Source: Acidimicrobiaceae bacterium (GTDB lineage Bacteria; Actinomycetota; Acidimicrobiia; Acidimicrobiales; Aldehydirespiratoraceae). Taken from it: a stretch of DNA of 64,000 nucleotides. Location: NCBI GenBank assembly GCA_028819505.1, contig JAPPLH010000059.1, positions 1 to 64,000 on the forward strand. The letters are read 5' to 3'. Made by a program: the position numbers and the translations under genes. This document shows positions 47,099 to 59,121 of this stretch, piece after piece (the first letter of the stretch is position 1; every line of letters begins with the position of its first letter). A model generated the notes under the pieces. The model was not told the origin of the DNA. It did not search any database and saw nothing but the letters and a program-made list of their open reading frames with translations.

Positions 47099-48868
47099 AT
47101 GAAGCAGAGCGGCCGCGAGTTCGACGAACATGAGAGTGGCACTGGTGGCGTGAGGCGTCTCGATTCGGCAGAGACCATTGCTCGCATCGATGAACTTCTT
47201 GAGGTTTCTTACCGGTCGGGTGACCTGGGGAATGTTGATGACATTCTCTCTGAGATCGTGTACGTCCTCCTTAGCTTGAACACACGCGAGACCGTCTACC
47301 AGAGTGTCTTCGCTCGCCTCAGACGCAAGTATCCCCGGTGGCTCGACGTCGCGACAGCCGCGCTCCCCGAACTGGAGGGCGTGCTGCGGCCCGGAGGCCT
47401 CCAGTCGCAACGGGCTGGTTACCTCCAGTCGCTCCTCGGAGCAGTCTTGAGGGACAACCGCAAGCGCGGCATGAGCCCGGCCGGCGACGGTGACGATCTC
47501 ACCCTGGAGTACCTCCATGAGATGGGAGACGACGAAGTAGAGGCCTTCCTGGTATCGCTTCCGGGCGTTGGCAAGAAGACCGCTAGGTGTGTCATGGCGT
47601 ACGCGTTCAACCGGCACACATTCGCCGTCGACACTCATGTCGCTCGGGTCTTCGGTCGACTCGGACTGATTCCTCCACGACAGAAGCCAGAGCATGACCT
47701 GTACCAGTCGATCGTCCCTCCACGGGTACGGAAGCGGCTTCACATCAACCTCATCCACCATGGCCGGACCATCTGCAGGAGCCGAGCGCGGTGTGACACA
47801 TGCGTACTTGTCTCCTTCTGCCCCGTAGGCCAGCACCGCGTCGCTCTTGAAGATCCCAGACCGGCAGCTGTCGATCTCTTTGCGGGGGCCGGAGGTCTTG
47901 GCCATGGTTTCCGCCAGGCGGGGTGGCGCGTTGCGGTCGCTGTGGAGGCCGACCGGAACGCCGCGCAGACCTACCGGGCGAACAACCCAGGAACTCCCGT
48001 AGTCGAGGCCGATGTCACCGAGATAGCTGCAGAGGACCTCCGCAAGGTCTCGCCTGGACTCGATCCTGCTGCAGTACTTGCGGGTCCCCCATGCCAGGGT
48101 TACTCGGCTGCGGGAGCACGCAACCCCAGCGACCCGCAGAATCGCCTCTACGAGGACGTGGTGCGCGTCGCCGACTCGCTCGATGCCGACCTGATCGTGC
48201 TAGAGAACGTTCCGGGCTTGAGGCGCGTGAACGGTGTTGGGTTCTCTGCTGACATTCTGGCTGCTCTGAACCATCATCGCACCGCCGAGCGCCATGAACT
48301 GCTCGCGTCAGACTTCGGGGTTCCCCAAGCAAGGCGGCGCTTCTTCTTCGTGGCCTCTAGGGGTACTGGTGATGCACCGGTGGATGCACCATCACCCACC
48401 CACTCGGTCGTAGCAGAGGACCGCCTTGCCACCACGCCGACGCTCGAGTCTGTGCTCCGCGGACTGCTGGAGGTCCCCAGCGGGACGGTCGAGGATGCCG
48501 TAGTTCTCGAAGATGGCGCGCTCCTGACGAACAGCGCCACGATGCGCCACTCGCAACGTGTCATCGACAAGATCGCCGGAATCGAACCTGGGAAGGGGCC
48601 AATCTCCTACCGGCGATTGGAGCGCGACTTGGCACGAACGCTCGTAGCGGGACATCGCGCACTCCCGGTCCATCCATGGCTTAACCGGACGATCTCTGTG
48701 AGAGAGGCCGCGCGTATCCAAGGCTTCCCGGACTCGTACGTGTTTTGCGGTCCCCGTTCAAACCAGCCCCTTCAGGTTGCGAACGCCGTGCCGCCCCCCG
48801 TCGCGGAAGCCCTCGGACGGCACTTACTCGCTCGGAGAGCGGTTCAGAACGCGGTTGCTAACGAGTAG
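47099..48868 (+). CDS. Endonuclease III-like domain fused to a C5-cytosine DNA methyltransferase
   Basis: Residues 25-245 are an HhH-GPD glycosylase domain. It has the hairpin LPGVGKKTARC with the catalytic-type Lys160, Asp178 in FAVDTHVARVFGRLGL, and four Cys (226, 232, 235, 241) in a C-x5-C-x2-C-x5-C iron-sulfur loop. Residues 255-589 are a complete C5 methyltransferase: motif I DLFAGAGG (259), catalytic PCQ (Cys332), ENVPG (369), QARRR (410), FPD (543) and QVANAVPP (559), with a short target domain. The likely role is to methylate cytosines and repair T:G mismatches left by 5mC deamination, or alternatively to cut. It converges on the helicase operon and could be the DruM component of a Druantia type II-like system. 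Confidence 0.85.
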   Translation: MKQSGREFDEHESGTGGVRRLDSAETIARIDELLEVSYRSGDLGNVDDILSEIVYVLLSLNTRETVYQSVFARLRRKYPRWLDVATAALPELEGVLRPGGLQSQRAGYLQSLLGAVLRDNRKRGMSPAGDGDDLTLEYLHEMGDDEVEAFLVSLPGVGKKTARCVMAYAFNRHTFAVDTHVARVFGRLGLIPPRQKPEHDLYQSIVPPRVRKRLHINLIHHGRTICRSRARCDTCVLVSFCPVGQHRVALEDPRPAAVDLFAGAGGLGHGFRQAGWRVAVAVEADRNAAQTYRANNPGTPVVEADVTEIAAEDLRKVSPGLDPAAVLAGPPCQGYSAAGARNPSDPQNRLYEDVVRVADSLDADLIVLENVPGLRRVNGVGFSADILAALNHHRTAERHELLASDFGVPQARRRFFFVASRGTGDAPVDAPSPTHSVVAEDRLATTPTLESVLRGLLEVPSGTVEDAVVLEDGALLTNSATMRHSQRVIDKIAGIEPGKGPISYRRLERDLARTLVAGHRALPVHPWLNRTISVREAARIQGFPDSYVFCGPRSNQPLQVANAVPPPVAEALGRHLLARRAVQNAVANE

Positions 48869-48918
48869 ATCGGCCTGGGCGGACTCTTCCCGTGAGGACC
48901 GTCCGTGAGTCGGTTGCT

Positions 48919-51900
48919 TCATGCTCCGAGCGACTGGTAGCTCCAACTCTCACGCCGGAGGAGATTGAATGTGTCGAGATGCTGCGGAGGCGAAGAGACG
49001 GCCGCGTGCGCTTCGGCTAAGAGACCCAGCGGCTTGTGGGGATCCCATAGAGGATGGACAATCACGACATGTTGAGTTCCGACCGCGAATCCAGGAAGCG
49101 GACCACAGTCCCGGGGTGTACAGCCGAAAGTGTTGCAGAACGCGTCCCGCCGCTCTTGGGCGAATTCCTGCCAGCCATCCAGGTCAGGGGCAGTGAAGTC
49201 GCGATCGAGTCCGCAAGCGAATGTACTGTCCGAGAGGCTCTTGATCAGAGATAGGCCGAGCCTCCAGTCGAGCAGTCCGTGAAAGGTCATGTTGCGGTAC
49301 TGCCGCAGGCAGTCGTAGCCAGATGAGTCGCAGTTCTGACGGTGGCTGTCCGAGGTGAGTGCTCCGATAAAGGTGTTCGCCGGTTCGACGCTGCTGGTCG
49401 CGCGGGCAAGTACCGCGGCCCAGTTGTCGTGTACCCAGGCCACGTATCCCGAGCCGTTGGTGAGGTGATCGCTCAGGACGATCTCCCCGGCTCTCCGGCC
49501 GGTGGCTAGCTCGACCTGGCGTACGTTACTTACTTCGAATTCATCTGGATCAATGTCAAGTAACTCTGCAGCAAGGGAACGGAGGATGAAAGCCGCCGAG
49601 TAGTAGGCGGCCTTCACCGCGCCGGAGGACGAGAGTGGGTCGAGGCGAAGGCCCGCTTGCACGGTGGCCGGCCTGATCCGGAGGACATCGGTCGTCTTCG
49701 GGGAAGCCAATGCGAACGACTCGGACGTGACGGAAGATGAGAAGGTAATGTCGTCAACCGTCTGGAAGCGCTCGTCGATCCATTGGGACTCCAGTACCTG
49801 ACCTCTCCTGTTCGTGGTGCCCAACTTTCCGGTGAACAGTTCCCCTCTGCGGTCGTTGACCCTGTAGACGCGGCCCGCTGACGAGTAGGCAACCGCTGAG
49901 TTCGTGGCCGGTACGTGGTTGCAGGGTTGGGGCTCGGACTCTGCCACGCTCGCCGTGCCCATCGCGAGGAGTTCTCCTTCCTCTTTTGCGTCCTTTCCGG
50001 GGTGCATGCTTGTCCGGAAGCCGAGGGGGACCGCGAACTGGTAGATCCGGAAGGCCATCGGCGTGTCGTCGGGGGTGCAGCCGCATTCGGGGCAGGTGTC
50101 GTTGTCTGGCTCGTCGTCGCTTGTCCTCGCGAAGTGGCAGCGTTCGCAGCGCTGCATCCACCGCCGCCCAGCCAGAGGGTTCGGGTTGGACGGTTCCCAA
50201 CGGCCCTTCCTGTAGATGTAGGGAGCGGTGAAGCCGATCGGAACATGGATCCGCTTGTCTTTCGTGCGCTCCGAGCCCGGAGCAAACTCTGTGATCGCGA
50301 GGTCCAGGTCCCGGTCGATTTCGCTCGAGGTCTTGGCCCGTAGTTGATGGAACAGGAGTCGGCTGCGGGACGGCATGCCGTACATGGGAAGGATCGCACC
50401 CTCGGCGAGGCGTTCTGCCAGTCCCTCGCCTGTGAGTTCGGGGTTCGCGGCTGCCTGGGAGATGTCGTCGTGCAACTCGTTTCGAGCGTACGCTTCGAGG
50501 TCTGCCCCCGCGGGGCACCCAGGTCCAGATGTGAGCGCAGCGGCGATGTCGGCAACGGCGTCCGCATTGGCTAGCCAGTCCCGGATTCCTTCTCGTATCG
50601 ACTCCTCATCGTGCCATGAACTGGAGAGTCCGAATTCGCCGTGAGAGTCGGGTGGTCTGGGGCTGTCCCAGCATGTGACGCCGTTGTCTAGGAACGCCCG
50701 CCGCAAACACTCCTTGGCGACGAGGCGCTGAGCTATCTCCCGTCGAGCCATTGACAGGAACGGGACAGGTGGCTTGTCTCCAGTGATCCGGTCTGGATGG
50801 CGGTAGTAGAACTCGTCGTGGCTGCGACCGCGGCACAGCGTCAATACGGTGGCGAATGCTTGACCCCGGCGGCCAGCTCGTCCTGCGCGCTGCTGGTAGT
50901 TGAAGCGCATAGGAGGCATGTTCCCGAGGACAACGGCCTGGAGGCTGCCGATATCGACGCCGACCTCCATAGTCGTGGTGACGCTCAGCACGTCAATCTC
51001 ATCAACTCGCTGGACGAGTGGCCGCTCCGGCTGGGGTTCCACCTCGACAACGATGTCTCTGAAGAGTCGCTGCCGTTCCGCCTGGTCATCTGATTGAGCG
51101 GTTAGCTCCTCGGTGTGGAGCCTCAAGGGCTGCCTCAGTTCCGCTGCCTCGCGCGCGTAGTAGTTGCGTGAGTGAAGATCGGCGCACGTCTCGGTGGGCG
51201 AAGCGGGAAGCGGCTCGTGGCAGTGCGTACAGACTCCCGTGCTGTGAAGATGCTCACGGGTGCAGGCGGTGCATCTCCAGACTGGATCTTCGGGAAGCGC
51301 CAGCCGTATGTTGAGCCGGCGCGGCTTAAGGATGAGATTCGCGTGCCCGCCTTCGCGGCAAACCGCTCTCCACACAACCTCAAGGAGCGGTGTCTCGCTT
51401 ACCCCGGCCACGATCGCGCATTGCTTGACGAAGTTCCTCAGCCTTGCGCGAGCGCTCTCCCAATCGGGCCAAGCTGGCAACGGGTACTCTGCCGGCTCTT
51501 GCGGGTACCGGTACAGGGCACCCATGACTCGTAGCGTCGCATCGCAGATGCTCCGGAAGCGCGCAGAATCGACGCCACAGTCGTCCGCGAGGTGTCCGAT
51601 CTCATCGTCGCTCAGATCCAGTCTTGGGTAGCCCAGCCCTGCCGATTCGAAGCCGAAGTAGAGGCGGCTGAAGAGAACTCCGCAGATTTCCGAGACCACC
51701 TTTCGGCGGAGGCGTTCGCGCTTCTCTCGGGCTTCCGGTGATATACCGTCCTGCCAGCCAGCAACGGGGTCCGAGAAGTCGAAGAAATCGGTCCACCGGT
51801 GCCATGCGTCGTCGTACTTGTAGTCCTGGTACAGGACTTCGTTGCCTCCGGGGTTCACTCCGAGTCGGATGAGCCGGAGGAGTAGCGATCCCGGCGCGAA

Positions 51901-54654
51901 TGGATCCGACGCAGGTCCCTCGAATAGGAGCCGTAGTGGAACTGTCCTGCTTGAGGCCGTTTGCCTCAATTCGTCGAGTTCATCTCGGGCTCCTTGCTGG
52001 CGCTTCTCAAGAACGGCCTTCATATCGGGATCGACGTCGGGGACTTCAGTGGCCGCGGTCCGGAGTAGTCGGTCGAGTCGTTCCCGCGCGTCCGGGTGCG
52101 CTTTCGCGAAGCGCACAGCATGCGGGGAGGTCGCGCCGCTCGTGTTCTCCATGCTCTTGAGAAGCGCCGGCTCTCCCAGCGCGAAGGTCGCAAGTTCGTC
52201 GTACAACGCCTCTCTGAGAAGGTCCAGGTAATGGGACCTCTCGACTCCGTTGGCCAGAGAGGCAGCTTCTTCCCTGCTGTCGGAGAATAGAACGAGCTTC
52301 CGTTCGTCTCTCGTCTCTCCCGGAGTGAGGTAGAACAATTCCTTCGAGAGGAGTTGCGTCAGCTTCGAGAAGCCTGTCCTGAAGCCGCGGAGTGGTGACT
52401 TACGGTACAGCCGCTGACTGTAATCCTCGCCGCACGATGGGCAGGTAGATGCCAGCGCACCGACTAGGGCCGGGTTGCACGATCCCGCCAGCATGTAGAG
52501 GAAACCTCGTACCGCGCCGTCGGCGTCTCTGGTTCCGAGCACGACACGCCCGCTGAGCGAGTCGAGGGTCGCTGGAGCCCACCTAGCGTCAACCTTCTGA
52601 CCCGGTACCAGGGTTGGCTGGCGCCACCGCACCGAGTCCTTGTGGAGGGTGGAGTCGCCGGATGGCCAGAAGAGGGCGTACTCGCCGTATGTGCGGCGGT
52701 CGATGAAGCGTGCTGCCTGCCGGTCAGGGATTCCTTCGATGTCGGGATCAGCCGTGAGCAGTTCCCATCCGCCGCCGTCGGCAAGTGTCATGCGGTTGCC
52801 GCCGAACAATGTCGTACCGCACTGTTCGCAGTAGAGCAGTTCGAGCACCCGGTGTCGCTTATCGGACGCTTCGCACAACACGCGCGAGTCTAGGAAGAGG
52901 GGTCCGGCGGTCCTGCCATCGGTCGATGGCGTTCCGCTCGGGCACTGCGGCGAGGTGCAAGCCCATACCCCTTCGACGTTGCGGAAGAAGAAATGGAGCC
53001 TGAACGACGGCAGGGCGTCTGTGTCGGCGGTCCCCCGTGTGTACAGCAGCCCTCGTACTGACGCTCCTAGGTCAGAGCACTCACCGAAGACCTCTCGGCC
53101 GAAGTACGAGACCGGTACCGCTCTGACCTCCTCATCAATCACACACGCGCGAGTCATGCGCGAGGCCAAGTCTGATGCGCTCATCTCAAGTGAGCGCGCA
53201 AGGCGGTCCTGCGGCGAACCGTTGCCGGACTCGCCAAGGCTATGCGCTAGCGCATCGATGGCCCCTTCAAGTTCCTCCGGATCGTCAGAGTCAATCAGTC
53301 TCCCGACGTTCGTGAAGGGCTCGGCTTTCAACAGTGTCGATGAAGCGGGCGGCAACGGCGCGGGGTGGCCCGGGATTACTTGATCTGTAGTCCAATCAAT
53401 GCCGAAGAACTCCGATAGGAACCGGAGGCTGTCAGGATCCTCGGGCTCGAGCGAAGCCGACGACGAGAGGATCTTGAGTTTGGGATGTCCGGGCTCCAAG
53501 CCGAGCCGGTTAAGCAGGAGACGTAGGAGATAGGCAACCTCAGTTCCGGCTGTTCCACGGTAGAGGTGCAGTTCGTCGACAATCAGGTGAAAGACGCTGC
53601 CGTCTTCCTCCAGCCACCGTCGGGTCTGCTCGAAGATACCGCTATCGGCGTCCCTCATCAGCATGATGCTCAACATGCTGAAGTTGGTGATGAGGATGTC
53701 AGGGGGAGCATCCTGCATGTCCCAACGGGATCGCATCTCGCTGCCATCGAGCCTTGGGAAGAAGTAGCGGACGTCTTCTTTTCCGGGCTTCCGGCTGTAC
53801 TTGGCGGCCACCTGCGCCGCCCTGTCGGCGGCCCGCAGTCCATCTACGAGTCTCTCGATGCGTGACGAGTCAGGGCTCTGTCGACCGTTCTGATTCGGTT
53901 TGCGGTACTCGTGTCCGGGCACCGGCGTTGAGCTGTTGTACCGACCGAAGTAGATCCGATTACCCCTGCGATTGTCGGCGAGCCAGCTGCGCGCTTCTGG
54001 TGAGTCGAGGGCGCGCCGCAGGCGGCTCAATTGGTCCTCAACGAGAGCGTTCATCGGATAGACGATCAGCGCCCGCATTGCAGCGGGTCGAATCTCGTGC
54101 CCGCGCTGGGAAACCCGAAGGGAGCGCCGCCACCTTCGCTGCGAACCGACTAGCGGTACGCACTGGTCCTTCCAATCGTCACTCCACCACCAGTCGTCAA
54201 GGTGCGGTGGGGGTGTGTTCGGTGGGCTCCAGAACGCCGATTCCTCCGTTAGGTACGCGAACAGCGGGAGCAGGAACGACTCGGTCTTTCCTGAGCCAGT
54301 ACCGGCAGTGATGACGCAGCTTTGGCCACCAAGCGCTTTGCGGAGCATCTCGATTTGGTGCTGATGGAGAATGAAGTCCCCGATTAGGCCTCTCGAAGCT
54401 AGAGACCGAAAGTCCTCGGCCGCTCGGGGCGTGAGCCCCGGAAGGTCGTCCGCGCCCACTTCGTCGATCCGCTTCCCCGACGACACGTAGCGGGGTAGGG
54501 GCTCGATCCAGGGTTCTTGGCTCAGCGCCGCGGGTCGTTGAAGGAGAGCACGGCGCTCCATTTCGAGGCTCGGAAACCTCGTGGCGAACGCCGTCTCGAT
54601 GTAGGAAATGACGCTGTCCGTGATGCGCTTGTGGGCGCCGACCGGGTCCCTCAT
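48919..54654 (-). CDS. druE: Giant DEAD-box helicase with DUF1998 domain, DruE-like
   Basis: 1,911 residues from ATG 54654, chosen because it overlaps the upstream stop (ATGA). Walker [12 protein letters not shown] is at about 116-126. [12 protein letters not shown] follows. The DELH box is at 360-363 and SSSASLE near 400. The second helicase half has [20 protein letters not shown] near 1220 and [12 protein letters not shown]. Four Cys pairs or clusters suggest zinc binding (YCEQC near 608, CPSC near 738, CTAC/CTHC near 1141, CERC/CPEC near 1505). DUF1998 closes the protein, ending with DCLRQYRN and LLDWRLGL near 1780. A helicase and DUF1998 in one chain of about 1,900 residues is the mark of Druantia DruE; DISARM splits them. 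Codon use is less GC-biased than in neighbours. Confidence 0.8.
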
Positions 54655-55637
54655 GTCGGCGACCCCTTCTCGGCGGTCAAGGGCTGCGACCAATCCTGAT
54701 GCAACTTGGCTGCTACTACTTCGAACACAGGGCGCGGCACCGCAAGGTAGGCGTTCAGCCCGATCCCTGTACCGGGCACCAATCTGGGCGCTTGGCCGCT
54801 GCTGAGGGCGAGGGCACGAGCGAGGAGCTTCGGGAGCGGGACTTGTCGCGGCACAGTGGCAACGCCTTCTCGATGGTTGTAATGCAGCACGGTGCGGCCC
54901 ACAGAGGCTAGGACGCAGTACCGGCCCCATGACCGGTCTACGTCCGCGCTTGCACCGTCTTGCCAGAGCCAATCCCGCCAGTCCCATCCTGAGGGGTGGG
55001 TGTAGGTGATGAGGCGGAGTCGCGACTCCTCAGCATCATCTGCAGGTGGTCCGAATCTCAGTCGGTCGGGATCGAACTCGCGGCGATCCCAGTTCAGGTC
55101 TTCATGTTCTTCCCAAGTCAGAGCCTTGAGGCAACCCTCGACGGAGCCGCTTGCTTCTGCCAGCGACCACGCGGCCGGATTGGGGTCGTAGCGAACGGCA
55201 AGCTCACTGCTCACAGCCATCATGTCTTCGTCCGACTTCCCGCGGACTTCGACTCGGGTGGGGGCGTACGGGTGGTGGAGTTGGGCAGTTGTCGCGAGCG
55301 ACAGCCTGCTCTCCGAGTCGCATACCTTGGCAATCTCCCCGACTGTGTCTGGCGACCGTGCACCGCACAACACCGCCCGGGGGAGCCCTGGCCAGGGCAG
55401 GCGCGCGAGCACTGGCGGGGCGACGATTACCCTGCGACTGGCGCCCGTGCCTACGGCCTCCCAATGCCCCAGCGAATCGCCGGTTAGGACCGCCTCGTTG
55501 CGCACGTGCCTCATCTCCGTGGCCAACTCGCCGTCCGGAACGCATGTGGCATCGACTATGCGCTTGAATGCGTCCCAAGATATGCTACGCTCCGCTGACG
55601 CCGCGTACAGGAGGGCGTCTGCTGGCCTAACGGTCAC
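54651..55637 (-). CDS. Uncharacterised protein of the helicase operon, DruG position
   Basis: GTG 55637 is chosen because AGGAG lies eight bases upstream and the product then overlaps the preceding stop by 11 bases. It has 328 residues and begins [20 protein letters not shown]. It is Trp- and Arg-rich towards the C-terminus ([31 protein letters not shown]). No membrane segment, Cys cluster or known catalytic motif is visible. Its stop overlaps the helicase start (ATGA), so the two are co-translated. By order (F-G-E) it is the candidate DruG of a Druantia type II-like system; this rests on context only. Confidence 0.6.
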
Positions 55638-57651
55638 GCGCGATGCTCCTATAGCGAATCCAGAGCGATTTCTGCGCTCGATCACTCGGCGGTGTGATCC
55701 GCTTGCGGCGCCGCCACAGAAGATCGTGCCATTGCCTGCGGTGAGAGCGATCGCCCACTCGCTCCGGCAGCGGCTCTGCATCCGCCAGAGACGACCCACA
55801 GAATAGGGCTCGCCCCCTTCGACGGAATGGAACAGCCCACACGGCCTGCCACTGCGGAAGCTGCTCATCCGGCCAAACCGTTATCTCGCCTCGGCGACGG
55901 CCAACGAAGTACACGAGCCCTTCCGGGCCGCCAAGCCCCGGCGTCCGCAAGAGATCCCGCTGATAGTCGACTTTGTCGGGCACCGGAGCCACCGCACCGC
56001 AGATGGCCCCACCTTCAGCCTGGTTCCCGAAGGAGTCCACGGCCACGAAAGGGTGCTCGAATCGCCACGATACGCCTGACATCAGATAGATGGACTGCCG
56101 GCGGACCACATCGTCTCCGTCGAGTACTTCTAGCCCGATCCGGCGATCAGTAGGCAGGTCGGCTGGCAATTCGTAGATGAGCGTAGAGCCGGCCCTGGGT
56201 TCCACGACCCGGCCATCCACCTGGACCTCATGCGTTGCGGACGCCCCGTGGATGGCCAGCCGGGGAGGCCCGAAGGAAAAATACGTGTTCCTTCCGGACG
56301 CACGCACGCCTCCTAGGAGTCTCATGGAGAGGCGGTCTGCGTGACCAAGACCGGGCCGAACGTCGCTGATACCTCTGTCAGATGATGCGCGGTCGACTGT
56401 TCCGAGAGTCCAGCCGGCCGGAAGGCCGCTCGCAATCTGAAGTGGAGTCCAGCCCTCGCAGTCCGACTCGAGCCACTCACTCACTGAGCCAGAAGCGATG
56501 CCGTCGAACGCAATATAGAACGGGGCGTCGCGCGGCAATTCAAGTACCTCGATCAGGCCAGGAAGCATCAGAGTCTGGCCCTTCTCGAAGACCCGTACCC
56601 GCGCCGGCTCAAGGCGCACGCGCCATCCAAGCCTCTCGTCGGCTCCAGCGAGGCCAGACCTCCACGCCACGCCATCGGGTTCATGATCGAACCCCGAGGC
56701 GGGAGCCCTGAGGGGTGTGGACCAGCCGTCACAGTACTCGACACACTCCAGAGGTTCAGACGCAAGCCCGGCAATGTTGATCGGATTCTCGGGATAGGTC
56801 CCTCGCGTGAAGACACGGAGCGATGCACGGGCGGTACCTGCTATCCGGTCGACCTCAAGGCAGAGCCTTAGGCCCGCGAAGACACCGCCCTCCGCATGGT
56901 CTCTATTTGTCGCGGGTACCGAACCATCCCATTCGGAAAAGTCCTCGGCCACCGCGTCCAGCAGCGCTTCCTGGAACGCCTCAGACCTGGACTCGAGCGC
57001 TCGCATCGTGAGGGGCCTGAGGTAGTCCCGTCCGTGGACCACCAGCGCCCGGCGCAGCTCGCGCGTGCTGGCCACACGACCTGGATCCAACTTCGCGGCA
57101 GCGAACATGCGGGGGAGATCACCCCGCTCGGTTTCGGTCAGGATCGTCTGTGCCAAGGGCAAACCAACATGAATCTTGGCGCCAACGATTCTCGCCTGAA
57201 AGAAACCCAATTCTCCGCCCCGGTCATGTACCGACCACTGCTCAAGGTCATCCCATAGTTCGAGCATTCGATCGAAAGATGGGAGGGTGCCGGTGCGATC
57301 CTCGCCGAGCAGACTCCAGAGGCGTGGGTAGTAGGCCTGCGGCGCATAGTCCCCTTCGTGCCCGCCGGCGAGCACGAACACGGCGAGGTACGCGACATAG
57401 GGGGGATACTCAAGTCCACGGTCACGCCAGCCATCAGCAACCTGCAGCGCCCGCTGGCAGTGGCCAGACCAGGTGGCACCGCGTGGCCCGACGCTCACAG
57501 TGAGGAGAAAATCCTCGTAGCTCTTCCCAATGGTCCGCCCCACCTCGGTGATGACGTCCTCAGTCACGAAGTAGTAGACAGGTGCCCCTTCGACGTCAGG
57601 ATGGAAGAAGCGCTTCGCGAGCGCGTCATTCCAGGTGAGATACCTGTCCAC
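55627..57651 (-). CDS. Uncharacterised first gene of the helicase operon, DruF position
   Basis: A 674-residue protein starting with GTG 57651. The N-terminal part reads LTWNDALAKRFFHPDVEGAPVYYFVTEDVI. Alternating beta-rich segments and several Trp follow, suggesting an Ig-like or beta-propeller-like middle and an all-beta C-terminal half (VQVDGRVVEPRAGSTLIYELP). No nuclease or helicase motif is evident. It is the promoter-proximal gene of a tightly overlapped three-gene operon ending in the DUF1998 helicase, the place of DruF in Druantia type II. That assignment is inference from order; homology was not tested. Confidence 0.6.
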   Translation of the reverse strand: MDRYLTWNDALAKRFFHPDVEGAPVYYFVTEDVITEVGRTIGKSYEDFLLTVSVGPRGATWSGHCQRALQVADGWRDRGLEYPPYVAYLAVFVLAGGHEGDYAPQAYYPRLWSLLGEDRTGTLPSFDRMLELWDDLEQWSVHDRGGELGFFQARIVGAKIHVGLPLAQTILTETERGDLPRMFAAAKLDPGRVASTRELRRALVVHGRDYLRPLTMRALESRSEAFQEALLDAVAEDFSEWDGSVPATNRDHAEGGVFAGLRLCLEVDRIAGTARASLRVFTRGTYPENPINIAGLASEPLECVEYCDGWSTPLRAPASGFDHEPDGVAWRSGLAGADERLGWRVRLEPARVRVFEKGQTLMLPGLIEVLELPRDAPFYIAFDGIASGSVSEWLESDCEGWTPLQIASGLPAGWTLGTVDRASSDRGISDVRPGLGHADRLSMRLLGGVRASGRNTYFSFGPPRLAIHGASATHEVQVDGRVVEPRAGSTLIYELPADLPTDRRIGLEVLDGDDVVRRQSIYLMSGVSWRFEHPFVAVDSFGNQAEGGAICGAVAPVPDKVDYQRDLLRTPGLGGPEGLVYFVGRRRGEITVWPDEQLPQWQAVWAVPFRRRGRALFCGSSLADAEPLPERVGDRSHRRQWHDLLWRRRKRITPPSDRAQKSLWIRYRSIARDR

Positions 57652-57813: not shown

Positions 57814-58965
57814 TCAGGAGCGGTCGGGGTCGTCGCGGGCGGCGTCTTGGGCGCGTCTTCTCAGGGCGTGGTGGCGGAAGCGGACTCGACCCGCGGAGGT
57901 AGGACTCAGCGCGCCGGCGGTGAGCAGGCGGCGCCTGTAGGTCCGGGCGTACTGGAGGGATCGGTCCATTCTGGCGGCGATGTCAGCCAACGATGAGTCG
58001 GACTCGTCTTGGAGCATCGCCACCAGGAAGCGCCTATCCATGGGCGAGAGCCGGTTCCAGACAGGACCCGCTACCTGCTCCACCATCGCCTGTTCGGCTT
58101 CCACGATCGCCGCCCGGATGTCGACGACGCTGATGGGCTCGTCTGTCGTCGCGCCCGCCCGCCAGGCATGGAATCCGACGAGCTGGATCATGTACGGGTA
58201 GCCGAGGGTCGAGTCCACGGCCTCGGCGAGGGCGTCGTCGTCGATGGCGCTGCCGCGGCTGACGATCGGCTCGCGTAGGGCGCGCCGCGTCTCGTCGGGT
58301 GTCAGCGGTCCCAGCGGCGCCCTCGCGCAGCGCTGCAGGAACGTCATGTGGGGGTCCGCGAGGTGGCTGTGCTCGATGAGCGGCAGAGCGGCCGCCGCGA
58401 AGGCGATCGGCCTCTGGCGGCGCCGAGTGACGATCTGCACCGCGGATGCGACGTTGCGGACATCGTCGCGCGGAACGTCGTGCAGTTCGTCGACAGTGAG
58501 CAGCAGTCCGGTCCGCGCATCGGCCAGCGCCTCGCCCAACTGCTCCAGCACACTGGTGAGGCTCCCAGCCCTGATGGGGACCGCGTCGCCATGGTCGAGT
58601 TCGACACCGATCCCGAGCACGCTGAGCGAGGTGAGCCTGGCCCGGCGCCCTCCGCCCGGCAGTTGTTCGAGGCAGCGAAGCGCCTCGGCTGCGATGCGCT
58701 CAGACAGCGGCTCTGACGATGCGGCAGCCGTGACGGTAAGCCATCCCCGCTCGGCGACCGTCGTCTCCAGTGCATTCAGGAGCGCTGTCTTGCCGGTGCC
58801 GCGGTCGCCCGTCACGAGCAGCGTGTAGTCGGGATGGGTCGGACCGGTCTCGATGGCCTCGGTGAACCGGGCCGTCACGTCGTCGCGGCCGGCGAGCAGC
58901 GGAGGGGTGGTCCCGAACGAAGGCGAGAACGGGTTGGTAGGGGAGCGCTCAGTCACGATGCCCAT
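57814..58965 (-). CDS. AAA ATPase with C-terminal winged helix
   Basis: A 383-residue protein starting near NPFSPSFGTTPPLLAGRDDVTARF. Walker A is GDRGTGKTAL near 53, and Walker B LLLTVDELHDVPRDDV is near 155. An Orc/Cdc6-like lid follows, and a winged-helix-like C-terminus has MDRSLQYARTYRRRLLTAGAL. This widespread actinobacterial family has no settled role; DNA-linked switches are likely. ATG 58965 is preferred. The frame is open 49 codons further through Arg-rich repeats, so a longer form cannot be excluded. It is separate from the helicase operon by 162 bases. Confidence 0.75.
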   Translation of the reverse strand: MGIVTERSPTNPFSPSFGTTPPLLAGRDDVTARFTEAIETGPTHPDYTLLVTGDRGTGKTALLNALETTVAERGWLTVTAAASSEPLSERIAAEALRCLEQLPGGGRRARLTSLSVLGIGVELDHGDAVPIRAGSLTSVLEQLGEALADARTGLLLTVDELHDVPRDDVRNVASAVQIVTRRRQRPIAFAAAALPLIEHSHLADPHMTFLQRCARAPLGPLTPDETRRALREPIVSRGSAIDDDALAEAVDSTLGYPYMIQLVGFHAWRAGATTDEPISVVDIRAAIVEAEQAMVEQVAGPVWNRLSPMDRRFLVAMLQDESDSSLADIAARMDRSLQYARTYRRRLLTAGALSPTSAGRVRFRHHALRRRAQDAARDDPDRS

Positions 58966-58977
58966 GCTACCGATAAA

Positions 58978-59014
58978 TCTCTTCGTATCTCTTCGTCTTC
59001 GCGCGTCTCTTCGT
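58978..59014 (+). repeat. Three copies of TCTCTTCGT upstream of the AAA ATPase
   Basis: TCTCTTCGT occurs at 58978-58986, 58988-58996 and 59006-59014, with looser echoes (TTTTCGT, GTTCGT) to about 59056. It is A/T-richer than its surroundings and lies just upstream of the minus-strand ATPase start and 108 bases before the divergent antitoxin. It could be a cluster of protein-binding sites for either gene. If translated as part of the ATPase, it would encode Arg/Lys-rich residues. Confidence 0.6.
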
Positions 59015-59057
59015 CTTTTCGTGCCTATTCTTCTGTTGGCTTCTCTCGTCTGTTCGT

Positions 59058-59092
59058 GCCCCATGGGGCGTGGTACGCTGGGTAGGACCCAG
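59058..59092. promoter_or_regulatory. Palindromic operator candidates for the RHH/PIN pair
   Basis: Two perfect palindromes lie 30 and 53 bases before the antitoxin ATG: GCCCCATGGGGC at 59058-59069 and CTGGGT-AGG-ACCCAG at 59078-59092. Ribbon-helix-helix antitoxins usually bind such sites to repress their own operon. The sites fall between the divergent ATPase and antitoxin genes, so one protein could control both. Confidence 0.5.
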
Positions 59093-59121
59093 TAACAACA
59101 AATACGGACCAAGGGTGCCCG

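Follow-up and report, generated by a model that had tools for sequence, protein, structure and literature searches.

The locus and its assignment

The subject of this analysis is a candidate Druantia defence locus in a 64,000-nucleotide stretch of DNA from an Acidimicrobiaceae bacterium (contig JAPPLH010000059.1; hereafter the window, to whose full length positions refer unless another locus is named), and in particular its methyltransferase DruM, whose N-terminus carries a DNA glycosylase domain that may guard the host against the mutagenic effect of methylation. Four genes between positions 47099 and 57651 make up the locus, with druM on the plus strand converging on overlapping druF, druL, and druE on the minus strand. 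The druM gene (47099-48868) encodes a 589-residue C5-cytosine methyltransferase with an N-terminal endonuclease III-type HhH-GPD glycosylase, matched by Pfam PF00145 and PF00730 and by the PADLOC MTase_II and DruM models. The druE gene (48919-54654) encodes a 1,911-residue SF2/YprA-type helicase (PADLOC DruE2/DruE4; Pfam DEAD and Helicase_C), counted from the ATG at 54654, the 2,022-residue frame of the open reading frame (ORF) tool being an upstream extension only. Both druL (54651-55637; 328 residues) and druF (55627-57651; 674 residues) have GTG starts and encode proteins without an assigned function. The overlaps are 11 bases between druF and druL and 4 bases between druL and druE, and 50 bp (48869-48918) lie between the ends of druE and druM, stop codon to stop codon. 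Starts, lengths, overlaps, and the converging methyltransferase all agree with a first-pass annotation made from the sequence alone, whose C5 methyltransferase and DEAD-box helicase are also recovered by Pfam (DNA_methylase, DEAD, and Helicase_C).

A profile scan of six proteins (including every gene of the cluster) gave PADLOC matches for all four genes, three of them nearly full-length to Druantia-specific models. The helicase is matched along its full length by both DruE2 and DruE4 (E=0), the 674-residue protein by DruF4 (4.9e-150) and DruF2 (3e-133), and the 328-residue protein by DruL4 (1.5e-57), while DruM2 (7.1e-60) is outscored on the methyltransferase by generic MTase_II models; the six proteins gave no DruG match at E<=0.001. 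DruL is the defining marker of PADLOC Druantia type IV, a system built on DruE and DruF without DruM or DruG (PMC8565338). On these profiles, the locus is a PADLOC Druantia type IV system (druF-druL-druE) plus a C5 methyltransferase, and not a type II system, because its middle gene matches DruL4 and no DruG model matched.

The first-pass annotation had proposed Druantia type II with the middle gene as DruG. Its Druantia membership and its DruE and DruF labels are upheld by the PADLOC profiles, whereas type II is rejected and the middle gene is DruL: searched against the Druantia models as that annotation had suggested, the three minus-strand proteins all match, with DruL replacing the failed DruG. 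It had also found no motif in the two middle proteins, which holds for Pfam but not for PADLOC, and had taken DruM for a plain C5 methyltransferase, overlooking its second catalytic domain (PF00730). A "new subtype", as it had suggested, could be claimed only through that missed fusion and not through the convergent layout.

DruL proteins from the window and from four further loci (L041, L044, L051, and L060) are additionally recognised by the long DruF2 models (1,011-1,030 residues), through the C-terminal third of the model. DruL is thus probably a piece that has separated from a longer DruF, which suggests that type II and type IV are two forms of a single family. Predicted structures did not help to assign functions, and this route was dropped: the AlphaFold model of DruL (predicted local distance difference test, pLDDT, 92.6) had no PDB match at E<=0.001 in Foldseek and reached, in residues 74-151, a VIA Z of 6 at best, to unrelated proteins, and the DruF model (pLDDT 77.5) gave meaningless matches only. 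By analogy with type III DruE, described as a helicase that enters single-stranded DNA and has an active nuclease domain (preprint PMC13192584), the DruE of the window is expected to enter at single-stranded DNA.

The glycosylase domain and its relatives

Within DruM, Pfam places PF00730 (HhH-GPD) at residues 56-198 (3.5e-9) and PF00145 at residues 258-576 (3.4e-50). Alignment to endonuclease III structures extends the glycosylase domain to about residues 24-245 (47168-47833), and the methyltransferase domain covers about residues 257-578 (47867-48832), with the motifs FAGAGGLG, GPPCQGYS, ENVPG, and VPQARRR readable in the translation. The same structural alignment identifies the active-site residues Lys160 (in LPGVGKKTA) and Asp178 (in VDTHV); the 4Fe-4S cysteines 226, 232, 235, and 241 form a C-x5-C-x2-C-x5-C motif, the last of them lying a mere 15 or so residues ahead of the methyltransferase domain. 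The best solved relatives of DruM residues 1-252 are Deinococcus endonucleases III (D. radiodurans endonuclease III-1, 2.9e-19). More distant matches include the demethylating glycosylase ROS1 (4.6e-8) and 1kea (Mig), the G-T mismatch glycosylase of a C5 restriction-modification plasmid in Methanothermobacter; where 1kea carries a tyrosine at the lysine position, the window has Lys160. As judged from these alignments, the N-terminus of DruM is an endonuclease III-type DNA glycosylase with an intact active site, and from its bifunctional lysine-aspartate pair an apurinic/apyrimidinic (AP)-lyase activity is predicted.

Genome contigs scanned with DruE yielded 35 loci, which, with those from other searches, are referred to below by number. 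The fusion is present in all three other Druantia loci whose DruE exceeds 60% identity to that of the window (L038, L078, and L068/L037); the next-best identity is 56%, and loci at that level have no fusion. L038, from Thermomicrobiales, is convergent and shares 63% identity across the fusion, and L078, from the same phylum search, is convergent as well. The third is from an Actinomycetes metagenome-assembled genome, in which one contig (L068) holds the fusion and druF residues 4-476 and another (L037) holds druF residues 493-672, druL, and druE; from the complementary druF halves, which share no joining overlap, we infer a single locus, with the fusion upstream of druF and co-directional with it. 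L037 begins with a transposition-ATPase-like sequence ahead of the druF remainder, so that druF, broken near residues 476-493, may have received a mobile-element insertion. Since the fusion is constant while the layout differs, the convergence pointed out by the first-pass annotation, though real in the window, is not a defining trait.

The fusion also occurs outside Druantia. At L080 (7876-14703), DISARM-like drmA-drmB lie directly upstream of a glycosylase-C5 methyltransferase fusion, and at L079 (1431-12850), a DndFGH/SspH-like operon encoding an FtsK-domain protein of 1,685 residues, with partial Dnd matches, converges on another; neither locus has the mismatch endonuclease Vsr. Across six fusion proteins from at least two phyla, the lysine, the aspartate, and the four cysteines are unchanged in alignment. 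Searches of 295 other genomes from the class of the window, 395 from its phylum, 295 from the class to which the Actinomycetes genome belongs, and of viral contigs gave no further fusion; 4 of 400 genomes in the phylum of L038 carry one, and the Chloroflexota search gave three new fusions. The fusion is therefore rare. Two haloarchaeal plasmid C5 methyltransferases (L063, 11737-13983; L064, 7050-9290), whose N-termini align to the glycosylase at low identity, first resembled fusions because of their long coverage, and were set aside when alignment showed that the lysine and most cluster cysteines are absent; the L063 methyltransferase adjoins DISARM genes.

Repair partners and nucleases across DruE loci

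To place the fusion in context, 53 DruE loci of mixed type were searched with hidden Markov models: the 35 genome-contig loci (L037 and L068 counted as one), 16 plasmid loci, L078, and the window. They come from a pattern scan and a plasmid search, are uneven across taxa, and are in several cases cut by contig ends; the searches used uncurated, frame-level ORFs. A C5 methyltransferase is present in 36, of which 24 have Vsr, eight an HhH-GPD glycosylase, none both, and four neither. The eight glycosylases comprise four N-terminal fusions, one C-terminal fusion (L039), and three separate genes (L028, L044, and L096). Those of L028, beside its methyltransferase, and L039 have 1kea as their closest PDB relative and share its tyrosine in place of lysine. 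Among the four methyltransferases without a partner, the L030 gene is cut by a contig end, and the L062 gene, followed by that of the restriction enzyme TdeIII, probably belongs to another system. On annotated plasmids of Rubrobacter, Rhizobium, and Agrobacterium, a Vsr gene directly adjoins the methyltransferase or Druantia genes, and on those of Roseomonas and Sinorhizobium it is at most a few kilobases away.

Loci without a methyltransferase mostly lack such a partner too: 14 of 17 have neither Vsr nor a glycosylase (Fisher 6e-7), the exceptions being L042 and L043, each with a decayed glycosylase, and L046, a truncated contig that encodes Vsr. The decayed genes (L042, 6762-7001; L043, 3711-4202) lie just upstream of druF, and that of L043 has lost the catalytic aspartate. 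The mutual exclusion of Vsr and glycosylase has a hypergeometric P of 1.6e-5 when loci are treated as independent and of about 0.003 when they are collapsed at 60% DruE identity. Twenty non-Druantia loci served as controls, each surrounding a C5 methyltransferase taken from the best matches in the class of the window; a partner of either kind is present at 32/36 Druantia methyltransferases versus 10/20 controls (P=0.003).

A further variable gene bears on how foreign DNA might be broken. Directly after druE, 19 of the 53 loci carry a PD-(D/E)XK (PDDEXK_1) nuclease gene, whole or in pieces (L038, 10257-11504; L078, 3584-4804; L077, 14786-16039; and 16 further loci), which the PADLOC paper (PMC8565338) does not list as a Druantia component. 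PF12705 matches the nucleases of L038 (1.8e-16) and L078 (4.8e-15), both with Cas4-like cysteines, and in L060 an EcoRV-like gene fills the same slot. In the window, the 50 bp between druE and druM, where L038 and L078 have this gene, hold no nuclease, and the predicted AP-lyase of DruM would be the sole recognised DNA-breaking activity of its four genes, which leaves room for a role in base-excision restriction.

The G+C content of the locus is 62-65%, against about 70-75% in most other parts of the window, consistent with an acquired island adjoining genes of molybdenum hydroxylases (xanthine/CO dehydrogenase type). An AAA_16/STAND-like ATPase gene (57814-59112, minus strand) lies 163 bp upstream of druF; it is probably outside the system, although its presence in relatives was not systematically searched.

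A proposed mismatch guard and its alternatives

Vsr guards genomes against the deamination of 5-methylcytosine. We propose, with a probability of roughly 0.64, that the fused glycosylase is likewise a guard against the T:G mismatches left by this deamination, carried on the very enzyme that causes the risk. DruM would methylate a specific sequence of the host genome as a self mark, and DruE, with DruF and DruL, would act on DNA without it. The mark would also be a mutation hazard, as 5-methylcytosine deaminates to thymine; the glycosylase would remove the mismatched thymine (or related damage) at the sites of DruM, and base-excision repair would then restore the C:G pair. It would thus take the slot held by Vsr in most methyltransferase-bearing Druantia loci. 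The identity of the domain, the conservation of its active site, its either/or relation with Vsr, and the Mig-like glycosylases of two loci all point to this role, and the fusions at DISARM-like and DndFGH-like operons without Vsr are what one would expect of a domain that works for the methyltransferase and not for a single effector.

Several observations weigh against this guard role. The domain is of the endonuclease III type, whose classical form attacks oxidised pyrimidines, and it has the catalytic lysine of a bifunctional lyase; its action on T:G is presumed. The DruE loci of the census are not independent. Vsr also occurs in 9/20 of the control loci and a glycosylase in 1/20; C5 methyltransferases in general are thus often accompanied by Vsr, and taken by itself the surplus of glycosylases (8/36 versus 1/20) is not significant (P=0.14). 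We accordingly do not regard Vsr as a Druantia speciality, and claim only the near-universality of a partner and the mutual exclusion. All evidence on the function of the locus is comparative, and its anti-phage role is putative.

The same domain could instead be the effector, excising an unmethylated target cytosine or a modified phage base and leaving AP sites or nicks as single-stranded entry points for DruE. Its lysine and aspartate imply a bifunctional, DNA-nicking enzyme; the locus has neither the nuclease of L038 and L078 nor any other recognised one in its four genes; the C-terminal nuclease domains of type II DruE are reported to be inactivated (preprint PMC12458937); and restriction glycosylases are an established concept (PMC10273834). 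We nevertheless rate restriction by base excision as unlikely, because L038 and L078 carry fusion and nuclease together, because some cyanobacterial druF-druL-druE loci have neither nuclease nor glycosylase, and because the domain accompanies the methyltransferase into different restriction systems, among them DISARM-like and DndFGH-like neighbours that already have restriction genes; across loci, moreover, it substitutes for Vsr, a repair enzyme. That DruM might be a self-contained modification and base-excision restriction enzyme, breaking foreign DNA at cytosines that are unmethylated or bear a different modification and supplying the nick for a nuclease-less Druantia, seems to us a long shot as well.

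A domain that only binds or targets DNA, or a general endonuclease III repair domain captured by chance, would agree with the DNA binding of HhH domains and with the haloarchaeal L063 protein, whose HhH-like N-terminus has apparently lost the lysine and most cluster cysteines in a low-identity alignment; binding would not, however, require the invariance of the lysine, aspartate, and four cysteines in the six fusions, and we hold this to be doubtful. Far less probable still is the excision of 5-methylcytosine itself, which would remove it from foreign methylated DNA or reset the marks of DruM, as plant ROS1 and DEMETER are known to excise this base (PMC10273834): ROS1 structures do turn up, but among the lower-scoring hits, far behind bacterial endonuclease III chains, and a demethylase fused to a methyltransferase would erase its own mark and invite self-attack.

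Little mechanism has so far been attached to Druantia types II and IV. The census indicates that methyltransferase-bearing Druantia almost always have a mismatch-repair partner, Vsr or a glycosylase and apparently never both, and this near-constancy argues that the methyltransferase is active, mutagenic, and a genuine part of the system. Judged by its gene neighbourhoods, the fusion, common to Druantia, DISARM-like, and DndFGH-like operons, is a portable, presumably self-marking module. In the literature searched, whose coverage was incomplete, we found no link between Druantia and a DNA glycosylase of this kind and nothing relevant on glycosylase-methyltransferase fusions; such reports, including of the Vsr pairing, may exist elsewhere.

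Among known systems, the pairing of a C5 methyltransferase with Vsr in very short patch repair resembles the window in joining a methyltransferase to a presumed T:G mismatch enzyme, although here the presumed guard belongs to the glycosylases rather than the endonucleases and is joined covalently to the methyltransferase. Mig of Methanothermobacter (1kea), to which the L028 and L039 glycosylases are closer than to any other solved structure, is likewise an HhH-GPD glycosylase accompanying a C5 methyltransferase, whereas the domain of the window is of the endonuclease III type, with lysine for tyrosine, and belongs to the same polypeptide as the methyltransferase. With R.PabI and other restriction glycosylases (PMC10273834), the window shares base excision encoded together with a methyltransferase, but it differs in its HhH-GPD domain, its fusion, and its link to a helicase system, and restriction by base excision is only hypothetical here. 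With Druantia type II (DruM, DruF, DruG, and DruE), the window has the C5 methyltransferase, DruF, and DruE in common, with DruL instead of DruG. Druantia type IV (PMC8565338) has the same DruF, DruL, and DruE in the same order, matched by the DruF4, DruL4, and DruE4 profiles, and the window differs from it by a C5 methyltransferase, not required by the definition, with its fused glycosylase.

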